A stretch of DNA of 64,000 nt from Ilumatobacteraceae bacterium. GTDB lineage: Bacteria; Actinomycetota; Acidimicrobiia; Acidimicrobiales; Ilumatobacteraceae. A model generated the notes under the pieces. That model had not been told where the DNA came from, made no database searches, and saw only the letters and a program-made list of their open reading frames with translations. Below are positions 42,848 through 51,846 of this stretch, one piece after another. The stretch spans positions 62,001-126,000 of the forward strand of contig JAJTEL010000003.1 of NCBI GenBank assembly GCA_021299715.1. The letters are read 5' to 3'. A program made the position numbers and the translations under genes. Position 1 is the first letter of the stretch; each line of letters opens with the position of its first letter.

Positions 42848-43689
42848 ATCTCTGTGATGATTTCTTCCGACGTTCTCACACTGCCCTCGCGAACACGGAC
42901 ACGACCCGACAGCGCGACCAAGGCAGCGTCAACACCGACGCTTGGGTTTTCACGAGTTGACTCGCGAAGTTCAGCCAGTGACACCGCTACTTTCGCGAAG
43001 TCGACCGCGCCACGAACAGATGACCCGACGCGTAAATCTGTATGTGACCGAGTACGACGAACAACTGATACAACTTTTTCTAGCCACGCGGCATCTATTG
43101 ATGCACCGTTGAGATTTCGTTGCACTATGGCAACCTCTTCTTCAGCGGTTTGATACGACATTGCAACACGACACACTCGGTCGTACACAGCGCCAGAGAT
43201 ACGAGCGGTGCCCACTGCATCGAACGGGTTCATTGCAGCCACCAAACGGAACCCCGCCGCTGCGGCTATTCGACCTAAACGGGGAACATTTAGTTCGCCT
43301 TCACTCATCACCGTAATAAGAACGTTCAATGTCTCTTCGGGGATGCGATTGATTTCTTCCACATACAACAACGAACCGTCGCGAAGCGCACTCGCTAGCG
43401 GCCCGTCAACAAAAACAGAAGGGTCGTAGCCTTCGTTTAAGACACGCGCTGGGTCGAAGTGCCCAACGAGTCGTGCCGGCGTGAGTTCTGCGTTCCCTTC
43501 AACAAACTCAAAACCAATTCCTAAACCCTGTGCAACTGCACGCAGCAATGTTGATTTTCCGGTGCCCGGAGGTCCTTCTAACAACACATGACGGTCTGCG
43601 GCAAGAGCCGCAAGAACTAATTCAAGTTCACGACGACGTCCCACCACTTGCGAAGTGAGTGCGTTGCGGAGTGCGGATGAGTTAGTCAT
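42760..43689 (-). CDS. MoxR-type AAA+ ATPase
   Basis: A 309-residue AAA+ ATPase. Walker A: LLEGPPGTGKSTLLRA (about residue 38-53); Walker B: GSLLYVEEINRIPEETLNVLITVMSEGE; sensor 1 FRLVAAMNPFDAVGTARIS; typical of the MoxR/CoxD or magnesium-chelatase-I-like group. With the VWA protein it should form a chaperone pair that remodels a target enzyme. The ATG at 43689 overlaps the stop of the alcohol dehydrogenase by 8 bases, so the ATPase is translationally tied to a mycofactocin-type dehydrogenase, which is the plausible client. That pairing is inference from position. Confidence 0.88.
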   Translation of the reverse strand: MTNSSALRNALTSQVVGRRRELELVLAALAADRHVLLEGPPGTGKSTLLRAVAQGLGIGFEFVEGNAELTPARLVGHFDPARVLNEGYDPSVFVDGPLASALRDGSLLYVEEINRIPEETLNVLITVMSEGELNVPRLGRIAAAAGFRLVAAMNPFDAVGTARISGAVYDRVCRVAMSYQTAEEEVAIVQRNLNGASIDAAWLEKVVSVVRRTRSHTDLRVGSSVRGAVDFAKVAVSLAELRESTRENPSVGVDAALVALSGRVRVREGSVRTSEEIITEIWQDVFGRVEGDGGEGKAGAPTNRGTTSL

Positions 43690-44833
43690 TAACAATGACG
43701 CCGCGAATGTTCACGCCGTCGCGCATTGCCTGATAGCCCTCGTTGATTTCATCCAACGTGTAGCGGCGAGTGATGAGTTCTTCTAACTTCAAATCGCCAA
43801 CGCGATACATGTCGAGAAGACGCGGAATGTCTGCTCGTGGATTAAGGCTTCCGAAAATTGTGCCCTTCACTTCTTTGTTCCACATTGCAAGCTGGAACAA
43901 GTTGATGTCGGCAGATGTCTCGTGCATTGGTGAGATTGCAGTTACAACGCATGTACCGCCTTTGCCCACCATTGCCATTCCTTCGCCCATCATGTCGCCG
44001 TGGAGAACACCCGGAGTCATGATGACGCGGTCTGCCATTTCGCCCCATGTGAGTTCATTGATGTGCGGAATTGCTTCGGCCATTGACGCAAACGTATGAG
44101 TTGCGCCCATCTCCATCGCCTTTTCACGCTTGAACTCAATGGGGTCAATAGCAATGACTCGCTTGGCTCCGGCCATGCGTGCACCCTGCACAGCGTTAAT
44201 GCCAATGCCGCCAATGCCCACAACAACAACTGTGTCGCCGGGTTGAGTATCGGCGCGGTTCGTTGCTGAACCCCAGCCAGTAGCAACACCGCACGACACC
44301 AATGCGACGCAGTCGAGCGGAAGATCTTTTTCTACTTTGATGAGGGATGCTTCGGCAACCGTTGCGTATTCCGAGAACGTGCCCAGTTTGGCCATCAACT
44401 TCACGGGGCGACCGTCTTTCACGTGATGGCGATGTGTGCCATCTGTGATCATTCCACCGGTCAGTGTTCCGGCACCCAAGTTGCACAAGTTTTGTCGACC
44501 AGTAGAGCAGTAACGGCAGCGTCCGCATGACGGAACAAAACTTGCCGACACGTGGTCACCTGGTTGAAGCGATGTGACGCCAGGTCCGCATTTCACAACA
44601 ACACCAGCGCCTTCGTGTCCACCAATAAATGGGAAAAAGTCGTCAACACCCATCATCGCAAGAAGTTCTTTAGGTGGAACCATGTCGCCAGTGACGAAGT
44701 GCTCGTCGGAGTGGCACATGCCGGCCACTTTCCAATTCACCAGTACCTCGTTGGCCTTTGGTTCGTCTACTTCAATTTCTTCAACCACCCATGGTTGATC
44801 AATCCCGTAAAGAACGGCTGCACGTGACTTCAT
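43682..44833 (-). CDS. Zinc alcohol dehydrogenase, NDMA-dependent (mycofactocin-associated) type, copy 2
   Basis: A 383-residue class III-like medium-chain dehydrogenase. Catalytic zinc ligands: GMCHSDEHFVTGD (Cys, and following His in GGHEGAGVV), structural zinc: CGRCRYCSTGRQNLC; nucleotide fold: TVVVVGIGGIGINAVQGARMAGAKRVIAIDP. These features and SCGVATGWGSA match the family in which NAD(H) is bound tightly and re-oxidised by a carrier, artificially N,N-dimethyl-4-nitrosoaniline and naturally mycofactocin. A short insert (PPKELLAMMGVDDFFPF) after the first motif distinguishes it from copy 1. Preceded by GAGGGGG. It follows copy 1 after 39 bases and overlaps moxR downstream. Confidence 0.85.
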   Translation of the reverse strand: MKSRAAVLYGIDQPWVVEEIEVDEPKANEVLVNWKVAGMCHSDEHFVTGDMVPPKELLAMMGVDDFFPFIGGHEGAGVVVKCGPGVTSLQPGDHVSASFVPSCGRCRYCSTGRQNLCNLGAGTLTGGMITDGTHRHHVKDGRPVKLMAKLGTFSEYATVAEASLIKVEKDLPLDCVALVSCGVATGWGSATNRADTQPGDTVVVVGIGGIGINAVQGARMAGAKRVIAIDPIEFKREKAMEMGATHTFASMAEAIPHINELTWGEMADRVIMTPGVLHGDMMGEGMAMVGKGGTCVVTAISPMHETSADINLFQLAMWNKEVKGTIFGSLNPRADIPRLLDMYRVGDLKLEELITRRYTLDEINEGYQAMRDGVNIRGVIVND

Positions 44834-44872: not shown

Positions 44873-45988
44873 TTATTCGTACACCAAAACGCCGCGAATG
44901 TTCTTGCCATCGCGCATGTCTTGGTAACCCTCGTTAATGCCTTCGAGTGGGTAGGTCTTTGTAACAAGACCATCCAAATCAAGTTGACCTTCTCGGTAGA
45001 GACCAAGAAGTTTTGGAATATCGGCGCGTGGGTTACCCGAACCAAACAACGAACCCACTACTTGCTTCTCCATCAGAGTGAGGTCGAGAAGGCTCATGTT
45101 GGCACCACCCATTTCAAATGCTGGGTGAATGTTGGTAACAACTACGCGACCGCGCTTTGCAGCGAGTGCCATTGCTTCGCCCATCACTTGTCCGTCGCCA
45201 ACACCCATTGTCATGATGACTTTGTTTGCCATGGTTCCCCATGTGATGTCTTGCAACAACGGAAGGGCTTCAGCCATTGACGATGCAGTGTGTGTTGCAC
45301 CAAATTCCATAGCCTTTTCGCGCTTGAACTCAATGGGGTCAACAGCAACAACTCGCTTTGCGCCGGCAAGCTTGGCTCCCTGAATGGCGTTAGCACCAAT
45401 GCCGCCAACACCAACCACAACAACCGTGTCACCGGGAGCCACGTCTGCTGCGTACACAGCAGAACCCCAACCAGTAACTACGCCACAGCCCAACAAACAG
45501 GCCTTATCAAGTGGAACGTCTTTTTCAATTTTGATGCACGATGCTTCGTTGACCACGGTGTGATGCGCGAAGGTTCCCAACATGCACATCAACGTGAGAT
45601 CTTTGCCTTGCGCGTGGTGGCGAGATGTTCCGTCGGAGATTTGCAATCCGAGACCCATGAGTGCGCCAAGGTCACACAAGTTTTGGTGGCCGGTGGAGCA
45701 ACTTGGACAACGACCGCATGATGGGATGAAACCAAAAACAACGTGGTCGCCAGGTGCCAGCCAACTGACACCTTCGCCTACTTGTTCCACTACGCCGGCT
45801 CCTTCGTGGCCACCAACAATTGGCAAAGCAAATGGAAGGTCACCTGTTGTGAGGTGCTCATCTGAGTGGCACATGCCCGATGCAGCAATTTTCACCAGTA
45901 CTTCGCCTGGGCCAGGTGCGTCGAGTTCAATTTCTTCAACGCTCCACGGAGCATTGACTTCCCAGAGAACGGCTGCCTTGGTCTTCAT
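44873..45988 (-). CDS. Zinc alcohol dehydrogenase, NDMA-dependent (mycofactocin-associated) type, copy 1
   Basis: A 371-residue medium-chain dehydrogenase closely like copy 2: MCHSDEHLTTGDLPFALPIVGGHEGAGVV (catalytic zinc), CGRCPSCSTGHQNLC (structural zinc), VVVVGVGGIGANAIQGAKLAGAKRVVAVDP (NAD fold). Length and motifs match the TIGR03989-type family that co-occurs with mycofactocin genes. It likely oxidises alcohols with a non-exchangeable NAD whose electrons pass to mycofactocin. The ATG at 45988 follows AAGGGGAC; a longer frame to 46144 runs through the control region and overlaps mftA on the opposite strand. It is divergent from mftA with 107 bases between. Confidence 0.9.
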   Translation of the reverse strand: MKTKAAVLWEVNAPWSVEEIELDAPGPGEVLVKIAASGMCHSDEHLTTGDLPFALPIVGGHEGAGVVEQVGEGVSWLAPGDHVVFGFIPSCGRCPSCSTGHQNLCDLGALMGLGLQISDGTSRHHAQGKDLTLMCMLGTFAHHTVVNEASCIKIEKDVPLDKACLLGCGVVTGWGSAVYAADVAPGDTVVVVGVGGIGANAIQGAKLAGAKRVVAVDPIEFKREKAMEFGATHTASSMAEALPLLQDITWGTMANKVIMTMGVGDGQVMGEAMALAAKRGRVVVTNIHPAFEMGGANMSLLDLTLMEKQVVGSLFGSGNPRADIPKLLGLYREGQLDLDGLVTKTYPLEGINEGYQDMRDGKNIRGVLVYE

Positions 45989-46095: not shown

Positions 46096-46215
46096 ATGGA
46101 ACAGGACAACATCCAGGACACCGCCGCAGAGCAGACCGAGACAACCCAGAACGTTGTCGTCGAAGAGCTCCTCGTTGAGGAAATCTCTATTGACGGCATG
46201 TGCGGCGTTTACTGA
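46096..46215 (+). CDS. mftA: Mycofactocin precursor peptide MftA
   Basis: A 39-residue peptide: acidic, Gln/Glu-rich leader and the invariant C-terminus IDGMCGVY. The last Val-Tyr is the core that MftC decarboxylates and cross-links, and that MftE later frees as AHDP, the base of the redox cofactor mycofactocin. The leader (VEELLVEEISIDG) binds MftB. The ATG at 46096 is supported by the -10 box at 46083 and by family length; longer in-frame starts reach back through the promoter. mftB begins 22 bases downstream. Confidence 0.97.
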   Translation: MEQDNIQDTAAEQTETTQNVVVEELLVEEISIDGMCGVY

Positions 46216-46237
46216 GAACCACTCCTCTCACGCCACC

Positions 46238-46504
46238 ATGACACTCACCCTTGAGTCGGCGTGCGAGATGCACCCGCAAGTCGCGTTGCGACCAGAGCCA
46301 TTTGGCGCTCTTGCCTATCACTACGGCAATCGCCGGCTCGTCTTCCTACGTCATCCAGACATTGTTCGTGTTGTGCGAAACATGTCAGCTCACCCCACAC
46401 TGCGCGATGCGCTCGCCGCAGAGGGTGTCGATGAATCCCGTTGGCCATCATTCGTGAAAGCCATTTCTTCTCTTACTACATCGGAGATTGTTCGTGTCCG
46501 CTGA
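46238..46504 (+). CDS. mftB: Mycofactocin chaperone MftB (RiPP recognition element)
   Basis: An 88-residue PqqD-like winged-helix protein. PQVALRPEPFGALAYHYGNRRLVFLRHPDIVRVVRNM is the beta-hairpin/helix core that binds the MftA leader and presents the peptide to MftC; the C-terminal helix ends TTSEIVRVR. Length fits the family. The start at 46238 is the first ATG after mftA; the 3' end overlaps the mftC start by 11 bases, so the two are made in a fixed ratio. Confidence 0.95.
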   Translation: MTLTLESACEMHPQVALRPEPFGALAYHYGNRRLVFLRHPDIVRVVRNMSAHPTLRDALAAEGVDESRWPSFVKAISSLTTSEIVRVR

Positions 46505-47609
46505 ATCGCTTGTTGCACAAATGAAGTCGGGGCTCGATGCTCCAATTTGCCTGACGTGGGAACTCACCTATGCCTGCAACTTGGAGTGCGTGCATTGTTT
46601 GTCCAGCAGTGGGCAACGTGACCCTCGTGAACTGTCAACGGAACAAGCCAAAGCGGTCTTAGACGAACTTCGCGATCTTCAGGTCTTCTACATCAACATT
46701 GGCGGCGGAGAACCAATGGTGCGCCGCGACTTCTTTGAAATTCTTGAGCACTCCATCGCCAACGGAATTGGTGTGAAGTTCTCCACCAACGGTGCGTTCA
46801 TAGACAAGAAGAATGCAGAACGCCTTGCAGCACTCGATTATCTCGACATTCAAATCAGCCTCGATGGAACAACTGCCGAGGTCAACGATGCAGTACGCGG
46901 CGACGGTTCATATGCAACCGCCATTCGTGCCATGGAAAACCTGCGTGACGCTGGGTTTGGCCAGTTCAAGATTTCTGTTGTTGTCACTCGCCACAACGTT
47001 GATCAATTAGACGACTTCAAGGCGCTGGCCGATTCATTCGGTGCGCAATTGCGCATCACACGTTTGCGTCCAGCCGGACGCGGAGCAGACACGTGGAATG
47101 AACTCCACCCCACCAATGCCCAACAACGCCAAATTTACGATTGGTTGTTGGCTCACGGGGAGAATGTTCTTACAGGTGACTCGTTCTTTCACTTGAATGC
47201 ATTCGGCGAGTCACTCCCAGGCCTCAATATGTGTGGTGCAGGCCGCGTTGTCTGCCTCATTGATCCACTTGGCGATGTGTACGCGTGTCCATTCGTCATT
47301 CACGACCAGTTCAAAGCAGGTTCCGTGTTGGATGCAGGCGGATTCACGAAAGTGTGGCGCGAATCTGAATTGTTTACCGAACTGCGTGAACCCCAAAGCG
47401 CGGGCGCATGTGCATCGTGTGGTGCATTCGATGCGTGTCAAGGCGGCTGCATGGCAGCAAAGTTCTTCACAGGAATTCCACTTGATGGCCCAGATCCCGA
47501 ATGTGTTGGAGGAGACGGAGAGGAATACCTCGCATCAACTCCGGTTGCCATTCTTCCTCGACCATCAATGGACCATTCAAAGCCCGCACGCTCCAAGGTG
47601 AATGCATGA
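46494..47609 (+). CDS. mftC: Mycofactocin radical SAM maturase MftC
   Basis: A 371-residue radical SAM/SPASM enzyme that oxidatively decarboxylates the C-terminal tyrosine of MftA and joins it to valine. The radical SAM cluster is CNLECVHC (C-X3-C-X2-C, about residues 28-35), with GGGEPM for SAM binding. The C-terminal SPASM region has CGAGRVVCLIDPLGDVYACPF, then CASCGAFDACQGGCMAAKF and a final Cys in GPDPEC, ligands for two auxiliary [4Fe-4S] clusters. GTG at 46494 is chosen because GGAGA lies 6 bases upstream and it overlaps mftB. Its stop overlaps plsY as ATGA. Confidence 0.96.
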   Translation: MSAESLVAQMKSGLDAPICLTWELTYACNLECVHCLSSSGQRDPRELSTEQAKAVLDELRDLQVFYINIGGGEPMVRRDFFEILEHSIANGIGVKFSTNGAFIDKKNAERLAALDYLDIQISLDGTTAEVNDAVRGDGSYATAIRAMENLRDAGFGQFKISVVVTRHNVDQLDDFKALADSFGAQLRITRLRPAGRGADTWNELHPTNAQQRQIYDWLLAHGENVLTGDSFFHLNAFGESLPGLNMCGAGRVVCLIDPLGDVYACPFVIHDQFKAGSVLDAGGFTKVWRESELFTELREPQSAGACASCGAFDACQGGCMAAKFFTGIPLDGPDPECVGGDGEEYLASTPVAILPRPSMDHSKPARSKVNA

Positions 47610-48196
47610 ACGTCATCAATCTCATTCTTGGAATAGTTGGCGGCTACCTTCTTGGCACGTTGCCCAGCGCCATCATCGTCGCGCGCGCAAAGGGTGTCGA
47701 CATCACAACATTTGGTTCGGGCAACCCAGGGGCTAGCAATGTGGCGCGTGCAATTGGTTGGCGCTACGGAAGCATTGTCTTTGTACTCGATGCTGCAAAA
47801 GGTGCAATTCCTGCCCTCCTCCTTATTGGGCATCGCCCCAGCGCATACATCTGTGGTGCTGTCGCCATTGTGGGCCACATCTTTCCCGCTACTCGCGGAT
47901 TTAAAGGTGGCAAGGGAATCGCCACGGGTGCCGGCGTTCTACTCGTTCTTCATCCACTCATCATGATCATTTCGGCAGTGTCGTGGATTGCCATCATGAA
48001 ATTGTCAAAGAAAGCATCCGTTGCATCCATTGTTGTTGTTCCGCTGGTTGTCGTTCTTCTCATCGTCACCGGAAAACCCGCGTGGGAGATTTTTGCGTTC
48101 ATCGGAATAGGACTTCTCATTGAAGTTCGCCACCTTTCCAATATCAAACGTCTTTTGTCGGGAAGCGAACCTCCCGTCTCTGGTACGCGTGGCTAA
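47606..48196 (+). CDS. plsY: Acyl-phosphate:glycerol-3-phosphate acyltransferase PlsY
   Basis: A 196-residue polytopic membrane enzyme that moves an acyl group from acyl-phosphate to glycerol-3-phosphate, the first step of phospholipid synthesis. Signatures: GYLLGTLPSAIIVARAKGVD, FGSGNPGASNVARAIG (phosphate-binding loop) and GHIFPATRGFKGGKGIATGAGVLL. About five membrane helices. It starts with an ATGA overlap at the mftC stop, so it is truly embedded in the mycofactocin operon, separating mftC from mftE. Its role there is unknown: a housekeeping passenger, or coupling of cofactor synthesis to the membrane. Confidence 0.94.
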   Translation: MNVINLILGIVGGYLLGTLPSAIIVARAKGVDITTFGSGNPGASNVARAIGWRYGSIVFVLDAAKGAIPALLLIGHRPSAYICGAVAIVGHIFPATRGFKGGKGIATGAGVLLVLHPLIMIISAVSWIAIMKLSKKASVASIVVVPLVVVLLIVTGKPAWEIFAFIGIGLLIEVRHLSNIKRLLSGSEPPVSGTRG

Positions 48197-48199
48197 TTC

Positions 48200-48823
48200 A
48201 TGCTCGGAATTCTTGAACAAGCATTTGATTGGTTAAAGGATTACTCCAGTTCGCCGTGGTTCTACGTCGTCCTTCTCACCATTGCATTTCTCGATTCGGT
48301 GTTTCCCATTGTCCCAAGCGAAACAATGGTCATCATCGGTGGTGTCAGTGCTGGCCTTCACGACCTTCATTGGTCGCTCGTCATCTTGTTCGCTGCAGTC
48401 GGAGCTTTCTCTGGCGACAACTTCAGTTATCACATTGGAGTCTTCTTCTCCGAGAGACTTCAGCGCAGATACAACAAAAGCGACAAAGGACGTCAACGGC
48501 TTCAATGGGCACACAACCAAATTGAGACTCGCGGAGGCGAACTTCTCGTCACTGCGCGCTTCATTCCTGGTGGACGCACAATCGTCACGTTGACATGCGG
48601 AATTACGGGTCAATCCACCAAGTGGTTCATGAAGTGGTCGGCCATCGCTGCAAGTATTTGGGCAACATACGCAACCATGCTGGGTTTTATTGGTGGGCGC
48701 ACATTCCAAGAAAACCACACAAAAGCGTTCCTCGTTGCTTTCGCTCTGGCCATTGGTGCAACCATCATTCTTGAAATCATTCGCTACGTCAGAGGCAAAA
48801 GATCTTCTGCACACCATGAGTGA
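48200..48823 (+). CDS. DedA family membrane protein
   Basis: A 207-residue DedA (SNARE-associated/VTT domain) protein. LTIAFLDSVFPIVPSETMVIIGG, GAFSGDNFSYHIGVFF and the conserved TARFIPGGRTIVTLTCGITGQSTKWFMKW (about residues 117-145) are canonical. DedA proteins are scramblases or flippases for phospholipids and undecaprenyl phosphate. It starts 3 bases after plsY and its stop overlaps mftE by 8 bases, so it is the second lipid-related gene inside the mycofactocin operon. Confidence 0.92.
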   Translation: MLGILEQAFDWLKDYSSSPWFYVVLLTIAFLDSVFPIVPSETMVIIGGVSAGLHDLHWSLVILFAAVGAFSGDNFSYHIGVFFSERLQRRYNKSDKGRQRLQWAHNQIETRGGELLVTARFIPGGRTIVTLTCGITGQSTKWFMKWSAIAASIWATYATMLGFIGGRTFQENHTKAFLVAFALAIGATIILEIIRYVRGKRSSAHHE

Positions 48824-49520
48824 CTTTGTCTCGCTCACATCATCGGACATCACACCTGGACGCGCACTCGTGGTGTTACCCCTTGGGTCGTGGGAACAAC
48901 ATGGTCCGCACCTTCCACTAGATACCGACACAATCATCATTTCGGAAGTTGTGAATCGCGGAGTGTCCGAGTCACAAATTCCACACAGACTTGTAATGGT
49001 TGCACCAGTGCTTCCCATTACAGCTAGCGATGAACATGCTGGTTTCCCAGGAGGTCTCAGCACGGGCACTCGCGCGCTCGTTGATGCAGTGGTGTCCATT
49101 TGTCGTTCAGCAGCTCCGTGGGCAGCAGGAGTTCTCATAGCGAACGGACATGGTGGAAACTTTGATGCACTGAAGGACATTGCATCGGCCCTTGACTACG
49201 AGAAAATTACGCACTCCATTTGGACACTTCCCCACTACACGGGCGCCGACATGCACGCAGGGAAAACCGAAACATCCGTGATGCTGCACATTGCTCCACA
49301 CACCGTTCGAACTGACCGTATCCCCCACGTAGATGCGCAAGAAATAGATGTGGCCGCGCTGCGAGAGCATGGCGTTCAGTCGGTTTCGACGTCTGGAGTT
49401 CTTGGTGAGCCTTCTTCTGCTACTGCTGAGCATGGTCGTGAGGTTTTCTCTCTGTACACCGAATCTTTCATCAGCCGTCTGCGAATGTGCGCGTCGCAGT
49501 GGTTGAATGTTGGTCAATGA
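48816..49520 (+). CDS. mftE: Mycofactocin peptidase MftE (creatininase family)
   Basis: A 234-residue metal-dependent hydrolase that releases the C-terminal Val-Tyr product (AHDP) from MftC-modified MftA. Creatininase-fold metal motifs: LPLGSWEQHGPHLPLDTDT (Glu, His, Asp ligands), PVLPITASDEHAGFPGGLSTGT and LIANGHGGNFDAL; the second half holds HAGKTETSVMLHIAP with a further Glu. The ATG at 48816 overlaps dedA by 8 bases; a longer frame to 48690 would run through dedA. Its stop overlaps mftF as ATGA. Confidence 0.94.
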   Translation: MSDFVSLTSSDITPGRALVVLPLGSWEQHGPHLPLDTDTIIISEVVNRGVSESQIPHRLVMVAPVLPITASDEHAGFPGGLSTGTRALVDAVVSICRSAAPWAAGVLIANGHGGNFDALKDIASALDYEKITHSIWTLPHYTGADMHAGKTETSVMLHIAPHTVRTDRIPHVDAQEIDVAALREHGVQSVSTSGVLGEPSSATAEHGREVFSLYTESFISRLRMCASQWLNVGQ

Positions 49521-50893
49521 GCATCCGCCTTCGCCCCGACCATCAATGGTTCCGCGCTTCAGACGGAAAGTCCCTGGTAGCTGGTTCTCCGCTGACGTTT
49601 TTCTCCGTCAGCGATAAAGGCGCCAACATTCTCACCTTGGTAGAAAACAACGATCTTCTGCCAGACGGACATGAACAACTCACTGATCGCCTTGTAGCGG
49701 CGGGATCAGCTCACCCTCTTTGGCACATGCCTGTTTCGGCCGAGACCATCACTGTTGTCATCCCTGCATTTTTAAAGGAAAGTCGAGATCTCGATCGCCT
49801 TGCGTCTCTCATTCGTCGACTCGACGGCCTACAGGTAATTGTCGTAGACGACTGTTCGCAAGAACCAATAGTTGTCCCTGGCGCCACAGTTATACGACAC
49901 GACAGCAATAAGGGGCCGGGGGCTGCACGTAACACTGGGCTTGCAAATGTCACCACACCGTTTGTTGCTTTTGTCGACGACGATGCACTTATCAACGAAG
50001 AAAAAATTCGACTTCTCGCTGCACAAATGAATGACCCACGTGTTGTCTTAGTTGCTCCACGAATTAACAGCACCGACAACAATCGACTCACGGGTGAGTA
50101 CGAAGCACATCATTCGCCGCTCACAATGGGCGAACATCCCACCATCATTCGGCCACTCTCGCGCGTGTCATATGTTCCGGCGGCGGTCATCGTGTGTAGA
50201 ACCGATGCAATTCGACAGGCGAATGGATTCAATGAAGCCATGCGTCTCGGTGAAGACGTTGACCTGGTCTGGCGTCTGGCCGCACAGGGCCATCTCTGTC
50301 GATACGAGCCCACCATCACATGCGAACACGAAACTCGATTAACGGTTCGCGAACTTCTTAAGCAACGTTTCGGTTACGGCACAAGCGCAGCAGCACTTAG
50401 CCAACAACACCGGGCTGCGGTTACTCCCCTTCGTGCCAATGTCATTCTTCTTCTGCCTGCACTTGCACTCATCTTCGGCTACATCTGGATCTTCCTGCCG
50501 CTGCTTCCGTTTGTCTATGCCTGGTACTGGATCACCCTGCGTCGATCTGGGCTGTCGCTTCTTCAACGAACTCGCCTGACAACCAGTGGGCTCTGGTCCA
50601 CCATTCGACTCTTGGCGTCAGCCGTCTCACGTGCGTGGTGGCCCATCTTCTTTGTTCTTTCCTTTTTCTCCTTTAGTGCCGGATTCGCATTGTTTGCCAG
50701 TGCGCTCACCCCGCCCATATACGGGCTGATGCGCTACAAGCCGCAACGTCTCTTGGGCTACATCGCGCTTCGCGTTCTCGACGGACTTGCGTACGGAACC
50801 GGAGTCTGGGTCGGAGCGTTTCGCCACCGGTCTCTGCGATGTCTCATGCCGATAGTCACGGGGTCAGCGTTGCGACTACGGTCAAAGGGGTGA
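49517..50893 (+). CDS. mftF: Mycofactocin glycosyltransferase MftF
   Basis: A 458-residue family 2 glycosyltransferase that adds beta-1,4-glucose units to premycofactocin. An N-terminal PqqD-like segment (SIRLRPDHQWFRASDGKSLVAGSPL) is typical of MftF. The GT-A domain follows: ITVVIPAFLKESRDLDRLASLIRRL, VIVVDDCSQEP, NKGPGAARNTGLANVTTPFVAFVDDDA (DXD as DDD) and GEDVDLVWRLAAQGH. The last 150 residues hold several membrane helices. The start overlaps mftE by ATGA. A PLP enzyme gene overlaps its 3' end. Confidence 0.94.
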   Translation: MSIRLRPDHQWFRASDGKSLVAGSPLTFFSVSDKGANILTLVENNDLLPDGHEQLTDRLVAAGSAHPLWHMPVSAETITVVIPAFLKESRDLDRLASLIRRLDGLQVIVVDDCSQEPIVVPGATVIRHDSNKGPGAARNTGLANVTTPFVAFVDDDALINEEKIRLLAAQMNDPRVVLVAPRINSTDNNRLTGEYEAHHSPLTMGEHPTIIRPLSRVSYVPAAVIVCRTDAIRQANGFNEAMRLGEDVDLVWRLAAQGHLCRYEPTITCEHETRLTVRELLKQRFGYGTSAAALSQQHRAAVTPLRANVILLLPALALIFGYIWIFLPLLPFVYAWYWITLRRSGLSLLQRTRLTTSGLWSTIRLLASAVSRAWWPIFFVLSFFSFSAGFALFASALTPPIYGLMRYKPQRLLGYIALRVLDGLAYGTGVWVGAFRHRSLRCLMPIVTGSALRLRSKG

Positions 50894-51846
50894 CAATTCG
50901 CCTTGCAGTTCATGAAGCCAAATGGCTGGCACATGTTCAAGGCGTGGCGCGCGCACACCCCGGTCTTGTTCCTGTTGTAAAAGGCAACGGATACGGATTT
51001 CGGCGATGGAATCTGATGCCACTTGCCGGTCAACTCGCGACAGAAGTTGCTGTGGGCACTGTTTTTGAAGTGCGAGACATTCCAACAACTGTGACACCAA
51101 TTGTTCTGACGCCAACTCTGACACCGCCACCAAAGAATCTGCCGCTGAACACAATTCTGACTGTTGCCTCTCCACATCACGTGGTGGCTCTCACATCTGC
51201 CGGATGGGCTGGCGATGTCATTGTGAAGTTGCAGTCGTCCATGTTGCGCTACGGAGTAGCGCGGGAGAATCTGTCATCACTTCTCAACGACGTAGAGAAT
51301 GCCCGATTCACGTTGCGCGGATTTTCATTTCATCCGCCACTCGAAGGTGATCCGGTTGCGCACCTAAAAGAAGTGGAGGCATGGCTTCCATTACTTCCTT
51401 CTAGTCTTCCGTTGTATCTCAGCCACTTCGATTCTCGCTTATACGAAAAGTTACGAACCGACCACCCTCATTACGATTTCCGCATTCGCTTAGGTACGTC
51501 GTTGTGGCACGGCGACAAATCAATGATGCAATTGTCGGCCGATGTCGTTGACCACCACGCCATCGAATCAGGCTCAAGAGCTGGCTATCGACAGGTAAAA
51601 GTGGATGGTCCGGGAGAAATTGTGCTGATTGGCTGCGGTACTTCACACGGAGTATTTCCCCTGCCCGATGGACGTAGCCCATTCCACTATCAACGACAAC
51701 GACTGAACATGCTGGAGCACCCACATATGCACACAACCATGTTGTTTGTTGCACGTGGTCGCCCAATTCCCAGCGTTGGAGAATGGATCGATGTTCAGCA
51801 ACCGCTCACGCGAGTACAAGTAGATCTCTTGCAATGGATTCGCTAA
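50839..51846 (+). CDS. Alanine racemase-family PLP enzyme at the end of the mycofactocin operon
   Basis: A 335-residue fold-type III PLP protein, shorter than the usual 360-380. The PLP lysine is in PVVKGNGYGF (about residue 48); SSMLRYGV and RLGTSLWHGD match barrel phosphate and substrate loops; SGSRAGYRQVKVDGPGEIVLIGCGTSHG aligns with the segment carrying the catalytic tyrosine of alanine racemase. It could be an amino-acid racemase or a relative with another reaction on an amine. ATG 50839 overlaps mftF by 55 bases; GTG 50890 forming a GTGA overlap is an equally good start. Its product may be unrelated to the cofactor, but it is co-transcribed. Confidence 0.75.
   Translation: MSHADSHGVSVATTVKGVTIRLAVHEAKWLAHVQGVARAHPGLVPVVKGNGYGFRRWNLMPLAGQLATEVAVGTVFEVRDIPTTVTPIVLTPTLTPPPKNLPLNTILTVASPHHVVALTSAGWAGDVIVKLQSSMLRYGVARENLSSLLNDVENARFTLRGFSFHPPLEGDPVAHLKEVEAWLPLLPSSLPLYLSHFDSRLYEKLRTDHPHYDFRIRLGTSLWHGDKSMMQLSADVVDHHAIESGSRAGYRQVKVDGPGEIVLIGCGTSHGVFPLPDGRSPFHYQRQRLNMLEHPHMHTTMLFVARGRPIPSVGEWIDVQQPLTRVQVDLLQWIR

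Follow-up and report, generated by a model that had tools for sequence, protein, structure and literature searches.

MftD is generally treated as the maker of the redox-active centre of mycofactocin. As described in PMC7491314, it oxidatively deaminates AHDP to premycofactocin, and deletion of mftD in Mycobacterium smegmatis abolishes mycofactocins, with AHDP-n accumulating. Because of that deletion phenotype, a genome without mftD should need a substitute if it is to make the active cofactor. Here we describe the mycofactocin operon in a stretch of 64,000 nucleotides (the window) from an Ilumatobacteraceae bacterium of the class Acidimicrobiia (GCA_021299715.1, contig JAJTEL010000003.1, positions 62,001 to 126,000 of the forward strand), in which plsY and dedA lie between mftC and mftE, and compare it with the mycofactocin genes of its relatives. 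The reading that we favour, and to which we give about two chances in three, is that the mftD of this genome has been displaced, that the operon is a relic of a type that carried genes for old yellow enzymes (OYE) and an electron transfer flavoprotein (ETF), and that in relatives without mftD this OYE/ETF cassette substitutes for MftD.

Some variation in the gene set has been described before. According to Haft 2011 (PMC3023750), most cluster-bearing species, though not all, have the MftD, MftE and MftR families, and an eLife 2025 article (PMC11778925) puts the share of mftC genomes without MftG at about 25%. The BGCFlow paper (PMC11162802) describes 17 clusters from Saccharopolyspora that have TIGR03997 and no mftD, and cites the production of a methylated mycofactocin by Saccharopolyspora erythraea. 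A literature search, with subscription journals mostly outside it, found no report that connects a missing mftD with an ETF cassette, and nothing on mycofactocin together with either an electron transfer flavoprotein or the Acidimicrobiia. The wider result presented here, the mutual exclusion of mftD and the OYE/EtfABCX genes, looks new.

The displaced mftD and the order of the operon

A search of the whole genome with the MftD profile (TIGR03966) places mftD on the same contig as the window, at C13:18637-19785 on the minus strand, where it scores 706.3 bits (cut-off 470.85; 706.5 bits by hmmscan). The match is full length, residues 24-406 covering positions 2-384 of the 385 in the profile, and it is the single protein above the cut-off in this genome, which rules out that mftD is truly missing. 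A hydroxyacid-oxidase paralogue at C1:339640, considered as an MftD, reaches 260 bits and is far below the cut-off. An earlier note on this DNA had reported no mftD in the 64 kb, which holds, as none of the five TIGR03966 matches of the genome lies inside the window (C13:62001-126000). It had then left a choice between an mftD elsewhere and a different finishing step. For this genome the first is correct and the second is not supported; the second is well supported as a pattern among relatives, many of which are without mftD.

Since mftD is present 88.7 kb from mftC (C13:108515-109522), MftD is displaced and not replaced, and what the window holds is, judging from sequence, part of a complete and ordinary mycofactocin gene set. 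The gene is not in its usual placement beside mftC or mftE; its neighbours are a HAD-family gene and znuABC, with no mft genes among them. In other genomes of the genus, too, the regions retrieved around mftC do not include mftD, and the gene has varying surroundings. The OYE_1 model has no match at E<=1e-75 in the window's genome (the same search also detects OYE_2 in relatives), and mft_etfA has none there at E<=1e-40, with all three candidates scored.

The order of the remaining genes is informative when it is set beside that of relatives from the same family (code f1 in our sample, taken as Ilumatobacteraceae). One of these, G121, has the row mftBC-OYE1-plsY-OYE2-dedA-etfA-fixC-fixX-etfB-mftE-mftF and no mftD, and a second, G298, has this row minus mftE, again with no mftD. 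The order in the window is that of these rows minus OYE1, OYE2, etfA, fixC, fixX and etfB. Because removal of the cassette yields the operon of the window, we read plsY and dedA as the leftover of an OYE/ETF-type operon. Elsewhere in the family the swap of mftD against etfA-fixC-fixX-etfB is exact: the row dedA-mftD-mftE-mftF of G321, in which 32 bp and 73 bp separate mftD from its neighbours, corresponds to dedA-etfA-fixC-fixX-etfB-mftE-mftF in G033 and G331 (with one extra gene before mftE in G331). The mftD-less row of several families is mftB-mftC-OYE1-OYE2-etfA-fixC-fixX-etfB-mftE, so the cassette stands at the slot that mftD occupies in mftC-mftD-mftE.

mftD and the OYE/ETF cassette across the class

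Our sample of the class comprises 394 genomes, each at least 90% complete. Scores above cut-off were found for mftC in 150 genomes, for mftD in 88 (three of them without mftC) and for mft_etfA in 58 (57 with mftC). The 150 mftC genomes divide into 84 with mftD only, 56 with mft_etfA only, one with both and nine with neither above cut-off; Fisher's test on this exclusion gives p 2e-30, a value that ignores kinship. In 62 of the 150 there is no sign of mftD; the mycofactocin-associated ETF is present in 56 of these, and OYE-type genes in five of the remaining six, the sixth (G338) being outside the OYE search. The genome with both types, G257, has two mftC loci (L208, L209), of which one adjoins mftD-mftE-mftF and the second mftE-mftF; OYE and etfA genes lie on a third contig.

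The 65 mftC genomes without an mftD above cut-off were inspected for remnants. One, G341, has a piece of mftD at a contig edge (370 bits). The other 64 were searched again with a lax threshold (E<=1e-45, all or nearly all candidates scored) for an MftD hidden among the hydroxyacid oxidases; none has a protein above cut-off and 29 have no match at all. Fragments of mftD were found in two of the 64, as two adjacent pieces in G405 and as a contig-edge piece in G406. In G405 (C3:6684-7756) the gene lies beside mftC and is broken into two reading frames, through an assembly frameshift or through decay of the gene. The least fragmented mftD-less assembly, G185, is one contig of 4.66 Mb. The nine genomes with neither gene above cut-off are accounted for by these three with fragments and by six from family f26; of the latter, G160, G279 and G291 have a divergent OYE1-OYE2-etfA-fixC-fixX-etfB-mftE row, detected with profiles of our own, and G198 and G362 have OYE matches.

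Most mftD-less genomes retain the steps before and after MftD, as the counts for the neighbouring enzymes indicate. In the 64 genomes mftE is above cut-off in 55, below it in five and unmatched at E<=1e-25 in four (G176, G213, G405, G413). For mftF, 80 genomes were searched, 16 of them mftD controls; 68 are above cut-off, and G338 and G378 have no match at E<=1e-25. The MftA core pattern is present in 59 of 61 ETF-type rows and 61 of 62 mftD-type rows. We also observed that two genomes of genus g2, G032 (L078) and G298 (L220), have no mftE in the operon and a mere creatininase paralogue elsewhere (138 and 132 bits, against an mftE cut-off of 172). As neither has an mftE above cut-off, the AHDP-releasing peptidase may also be replaceable.

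The cassette was defined by clustering the genes around mftC in 20 genomes (in 13 also around mftE-mftF), 16 of which have mftC without mftD at E<=1e-100 and four of which have mftD. None of the four with mftD has an OYE-type gene or a FixC-like flavoprotein, while of the 16 mftD-less genomes the former occurs in 14 and the latter in 13; for the three in which FixC was not seen (G040, G052, G054), the stretch analysed was limited to the mftC side. The resulting row in mftD-less genomes is OYE1-OYE2-etfA-fixC-fixX-etfB. In G033 both OYE genes are above cut-off (mycofact_OYE_1, 645 bits; OYE_2, 963 bits), as are mft_etfA (NF038209, 327 bits, cut-off 240) and mft_etfB (TIGR04503, 204 bits, cut-off 200), with a FixC-like FAD protein alongside; a FixX-like ferredoxin stands beside the cassette in G331. 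We searched for OYE and MftG in 80 genomes, i.e. 39 of the 56 with ETF only, G257, 35 of the 84 with mftD only and five from f26. OYE_1 matches at E<=1e-75 occur in all 39 ETF-type genomes, in G257 and in all five from f26, and 37 of the 80 genomes are above cut-off. Among the 35 mftD-type genomes 30 have none, and the other five each have a single weak match (257-284 bits).

Some enzymes of the OYE superfamily, such as trimethylamine dehydrogenase, oxidise amines and hand the electrons to an ETF. Histamine and trimethylamine dehydrogenases (3k30, 6de6, 1djn) match OYE1 with 104-108 and 80 bits and OYE2 with 172-194 and 181 bits, each match spanning about two thirds of the length or more, and both OYEs keep a row of four cysteines, as for an iron-sulfur cluster. 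Both score higher to 2,4-dienoyl-CoA reductase and NCR than to these dehydrogenases. One active-site stretch, interpreted by eye on the alignments, reads N-A-G-Q in 11 of 12 OYE1 seeds (D-A-G-P in one) and Q-C-S-H in nine of nine OYE2 seeds. The closest likeness of the remaining genes is to EtfABCX of Thermotoga maritima (7koe): a match of 256.5 bits links the FixC-like protein to chain C, and etfA, etfB and the FixX-like ferredoxin adjoin it. Unlike their Thermotoga counterparts, the genes of the cassette are linked to mycofactocin genes.

On a quick-method MftC tree of 123 rows, fewer than the 150 mftC genomes, labels taken directly from the scores above cut-off give nine well-supported independent pairs that differ in mftD. 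On average, mft_etfA changes in the opposite sense in 7.3 of the nine, in the same sense in 0.1 and not at all in 1.6; the median p of the sign test is 0.016 (range 0.008-0.125). Labels were also set by hand so that each row is exclusively mftD or ETF, with G341 and G406 assigned to mftD on their fragments, four f26 rows to ETF on divergent cassettes or OYE matches, and G257 split by cluster. With these labels the best MftC tree has 21 switches, 8 of which are forced by well-supported branches; a sign test on hand-set labels would be circular, and for this reason it was repeated with the raw ones. Switches occur even within single genera, e.g. G032 versus G298 and G422 versus G052.

Competing explanations

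Beyond the gene content, gene order, near-complete mutual exclusion, positional swap and trees, which are direct observations, we propose the following scheme. In the window's genome MftA, MftB, MftC and MftE would make AHDP, the displaced MftD would oxidatively deaminate it to premycofactocin, and MftF would glycosylate the product, the steps being assigned from the named families. The operon would descend from one of the OYE/ETF type, with the cassette lost after mftD had been acquired elsewhere, if the direction of change is as we suppose. In relatives without mftD the OYE pair and an EtfABCX-like electron outlet would make premycofactocin in the stead of MftD, with OYE as the putative amine dehydrogenase, EtfAB as the carrier and FixCX as the quinone outlet; the FixC-like protein may be the oxidase instead. 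A more specific version we offer only tentatively, as somewhat short of an even bet: that the cassette is a second, non-homologous premycofactocin synthase, in which an OYE pair like trimethylamine and histamine dehydrogenases feeds a dedicated EtfABCX and thence menaquinone, free of oxygen, that it and MftD have replaced each other on many occasions, and that the window operon is the fossil of one such exchange.

Several observations count against the scheme. The window's genome is 92.8% complete, so an overlooked cassette there is possible though unlikely, and at most five first-look candidates for mft_etfA were scored per genome in the class-wide survey, so a copy in an mftD-type genome may have been missed. 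The row of G121 is interrupted between plsY and OYE2 by a reading frame on the minus strand, and that of G298 is without mftE. The 41 MftC sequences of the window's family come together on the best tree through a weak branch (support 56; G294, which falls with other families, is left out), and the trees do not separate gain from loss. The strongest point, against the OYEs alone as a substitute, comes from a comparison of the flanks of 80 named mftC loci, in which four of the five from Rhodococcus (L182, L183, L186, L198) have mftD and both OYEs, with no ETF genes in the flank. In the same comparison, OYEs with neither mftD nor ETF in the fetched flank, the part covered for these two genera, occur in three loci from Pseudonocardia and in three of the four from Actinomycetospora.

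Since four of the five Rhodococcus loci carry both, OYEs are not exclusive of mftD; in the surveyed class it is the ETF part that excludes mftD. The fifth, R. rhodnii, has mftD alone. None of the mftD-type genomes searched in the class has OYE genes as strong as the Rhodococcus ones. Among the other named loci, Saccharopolyspora shandongensis and a Prauserella have OYE1, OYE2, etfA, fixC, fixX and etfB in the flank and no mftD there, two Saccharomonospora loci have part of this set and no mftD in the flank, and the loci of Streptomyces, Actinomadura and mycobacteria carry mftD. Two Pseudonocardia loci (L187:11157-15116 and L199:11280-15278) have, between mftC and mftE, a single frame of about 1,320 codons that appears from its size and from the extent of the profile matches along it to be a fusion of the two OYEs. 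One further locus (L156), from a record titled as a metagenome-assembled genome of Bifidobacterium breve, a title that is probably wrong, has an OYE1 gene and an mftC that is 84% identical to that of the window.

The four Rhodococcus loci lend some weight to the idea that the cassette is not a substitute for MftD at all, and re-oxidises mycofactocinol (the role of MftG) or serves another late step, while mftD-less genomes make e.g. AHDP glycosides. The match of the FixC-like protein to chain C of 7koe points the same way, as EtfABCX-like modules can use menaquinone as electron acceptor (stated in PMC10734219), and so do the AHDP-n species that occur in M. smegmatis without mftD (PMC7491314). 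We nevertheless consider this unlikely. MftG is above cut-off in only two of the 80 genomes searched, both of ETF type, so mftD-type genomes manage without either MftG or the cassette; on the same survey we rejected the cassette as a plain counterpart of MftG. The exclusion is specific to mftD, whose position the cassette takes. In addition, S. erythraea makes methylated mycofactocin, as stated in PMC11162802, with the qualification that the cluster we inspected is that of S. shandongensis.

A trivial rearrangement, in which mftD left an ordinary mftABCDEF row, plsY and dedA were inserted and the OYE/ETF pattern is unrelated, would agree with the presence of mftD in the genome. It would also agree with the same-family genomes G321, G233 and, divergently, G086, in which mftD adjoins mftE. 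The MftD sequences make it rather improbable: a single clade for the 34 from the window's family is rejected (approximately unbiased test, p 1.6e-5), and those of the window's genus are intermixed with MftD of families f22 and f27. A second MftD tree was built with G118 and the paralogue outgroup left out. Because the family's MftD is not one clade and is mixed with that of f22 and f27, repeated arrival of mftD from elsewhere fits better than departure from an ancestral row. The order of plsY and dedA, moreover, is the same in mftD-less relatives with OYE/ETF genes, as expected if the window operon is what remained when the cassette was lost.

The placement of plsY is a trait of the family. 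It is the first or second scored gene 3' of mftC in 46 of the 50 mftC loci scanned (in one of these, G086, after a gap of more than 1.5 kb) and in none of 81 loci from other families, a difference that leaves chance out as the explanation. Across the genus the recurrent row is vWA-MoxR-ADH-ADH (ADH, alcohol dehydrogenase) facing mftA-B-C-plsY-(dedA)-mftE-F-PLP gene-ROK (PLP, pyridoxal phosphate), and dedA is missing from it in several genomes. The earlier statement that plsY and dedA occupy the place of mftD is literally true, and does not hold in the sense of replacement, because plsY is also present in relatives that carry OYE/ETF genes. That either gene acts in mycofactocin metabolism, e.g. 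in the membrane handling of a lipid-linked form, would suit the family-wide placement and the coupled junctions of the window, but is very improbable given that plsY is confined, among the loci scanned, to those of one family, that dedA is absent from several same-genus rows, and that housekeeping genes often ride in operons.

About two in five of the sampled cluster-bearing genomes are without mftD. If the cassette does the job of MftD, there would be a second route to the same redox centre, testable gene by gene, and its distribution would show in which genomes production of the cofactor is to be expected. It would also provide a job for four families that are named merely 'mycofactocin-associated' or 'mycofactocin system'.

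The window operon among known clusters

The window holds mftA, mftB, mftC, plsY, dedA, mftE, mftF and a PLP-enzyme gene as one row on the plus strand, in the order given by the earlier note, whose description of tight junctions is borne out by spacings from an 11 bp overlap to a 22 bp gap. The precursor peptide MftA (46096..46215; TIGR03969, 51.9 bits, cut-off 25; PF23709) ends in IDGMCGVY, and between its stop at 46215 and the ATG of the chaperone gene mftB (46238..46504; TIGR03967, 95 bits, cut-off 33) there is the gap of 22 bp. The radical SAM maturase gene mftC (46494..47609; TIGR03962, 625.9 bits, cut-off 265) has an uncertain start, probably GTG 46494 within mftB, which gives the 11 bp overlap with the mftB stop at 46504, or else TTG 46488. 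An ATGA overlap at 47606 joins it to plsY (47606..48196), of the glycerol-3-phosphate acyltransferase family (PF02660 (G3P_acyltransf), 148.6 bits; TIGR00023, 133.8 bits, just below the cut-off of 137.2). After 3 bp follows dedA (48200..48823), for a membrane protein with a VTT domain (PF09335, 75.2 bits), which overlaps by 8 bp with mftE (48816..49520; TIGR03964, 215.2 bits, cut-off 172), the gene of the peptidase that releases AHDP. The ATG (49517) of the glycosyltransferase gene mftF (49517..50893; TIGR03965, 332.9 bits, cut-off 280) overlaps the stop of mftE. That plsY and dedA are members of the operon would fit these junctions and the conserved order.

The last gene of the row (50890..51846; PF01168, 38.2 bits) encodes the predicted PLP enzyme, similar to the N-domain of alanine racemase; its start is uncertain, with the probable GTG 50890 overlapping the stop of mftF and ATG 50839 as the other candidate. 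The protein has no match among PDB sequences at E<=0.01, and an alanine-racemase-like gene sits near mftF in many genomes of the family. We dropped the idea that it is half of a FemX pair, as the next gene in a relative encodes not FemX but a DUF418/acyltransferase-like membrane protein. Upstream, on the minus strand, lie two genes for alcohol dehydrogenases dependent on N,N-dimethyl-4-nitrosoaniline (NDMA), the divergent neighbour of mftA at 44873..45988 (TIGR03989, 557.9 bits, cut-off 440; start read from the DNA) and a second at 43682..44833 (551.8 bits, same cut-off). These two are likely to be the users of the cofactor.

With the GVY core of MftA, adjoining MftB and MftC above their curated cut-offs, and MftE and MftF likewise, the row is a mycofactocin cluster. 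It shares with the mycobacterial-type mftABCDEF cluster mftA, mftB, mftC, mftE and mftF, the IDGMCGVY core, the NDMA-type dehydrogenases and the presence of mftD in the genome. It differs from that cluster in that mftD is displaced, plsY and dedA stand between mftC and mftE, the PLP gene comes last and MftG is below cut-off (58.9 bits only, against 387.45). The other described relative is the OYE/ETF-type cluster (TIGR03996, TIGR03997, NF038209, TIGR04503), e.g. that of S. shandongensis (L201). The window's genome departs from it in the missing OYE_1 and mft_etfA matches, and, on the evidence of G121 and G298, the remaining genes of this type stand in the order found in the window.

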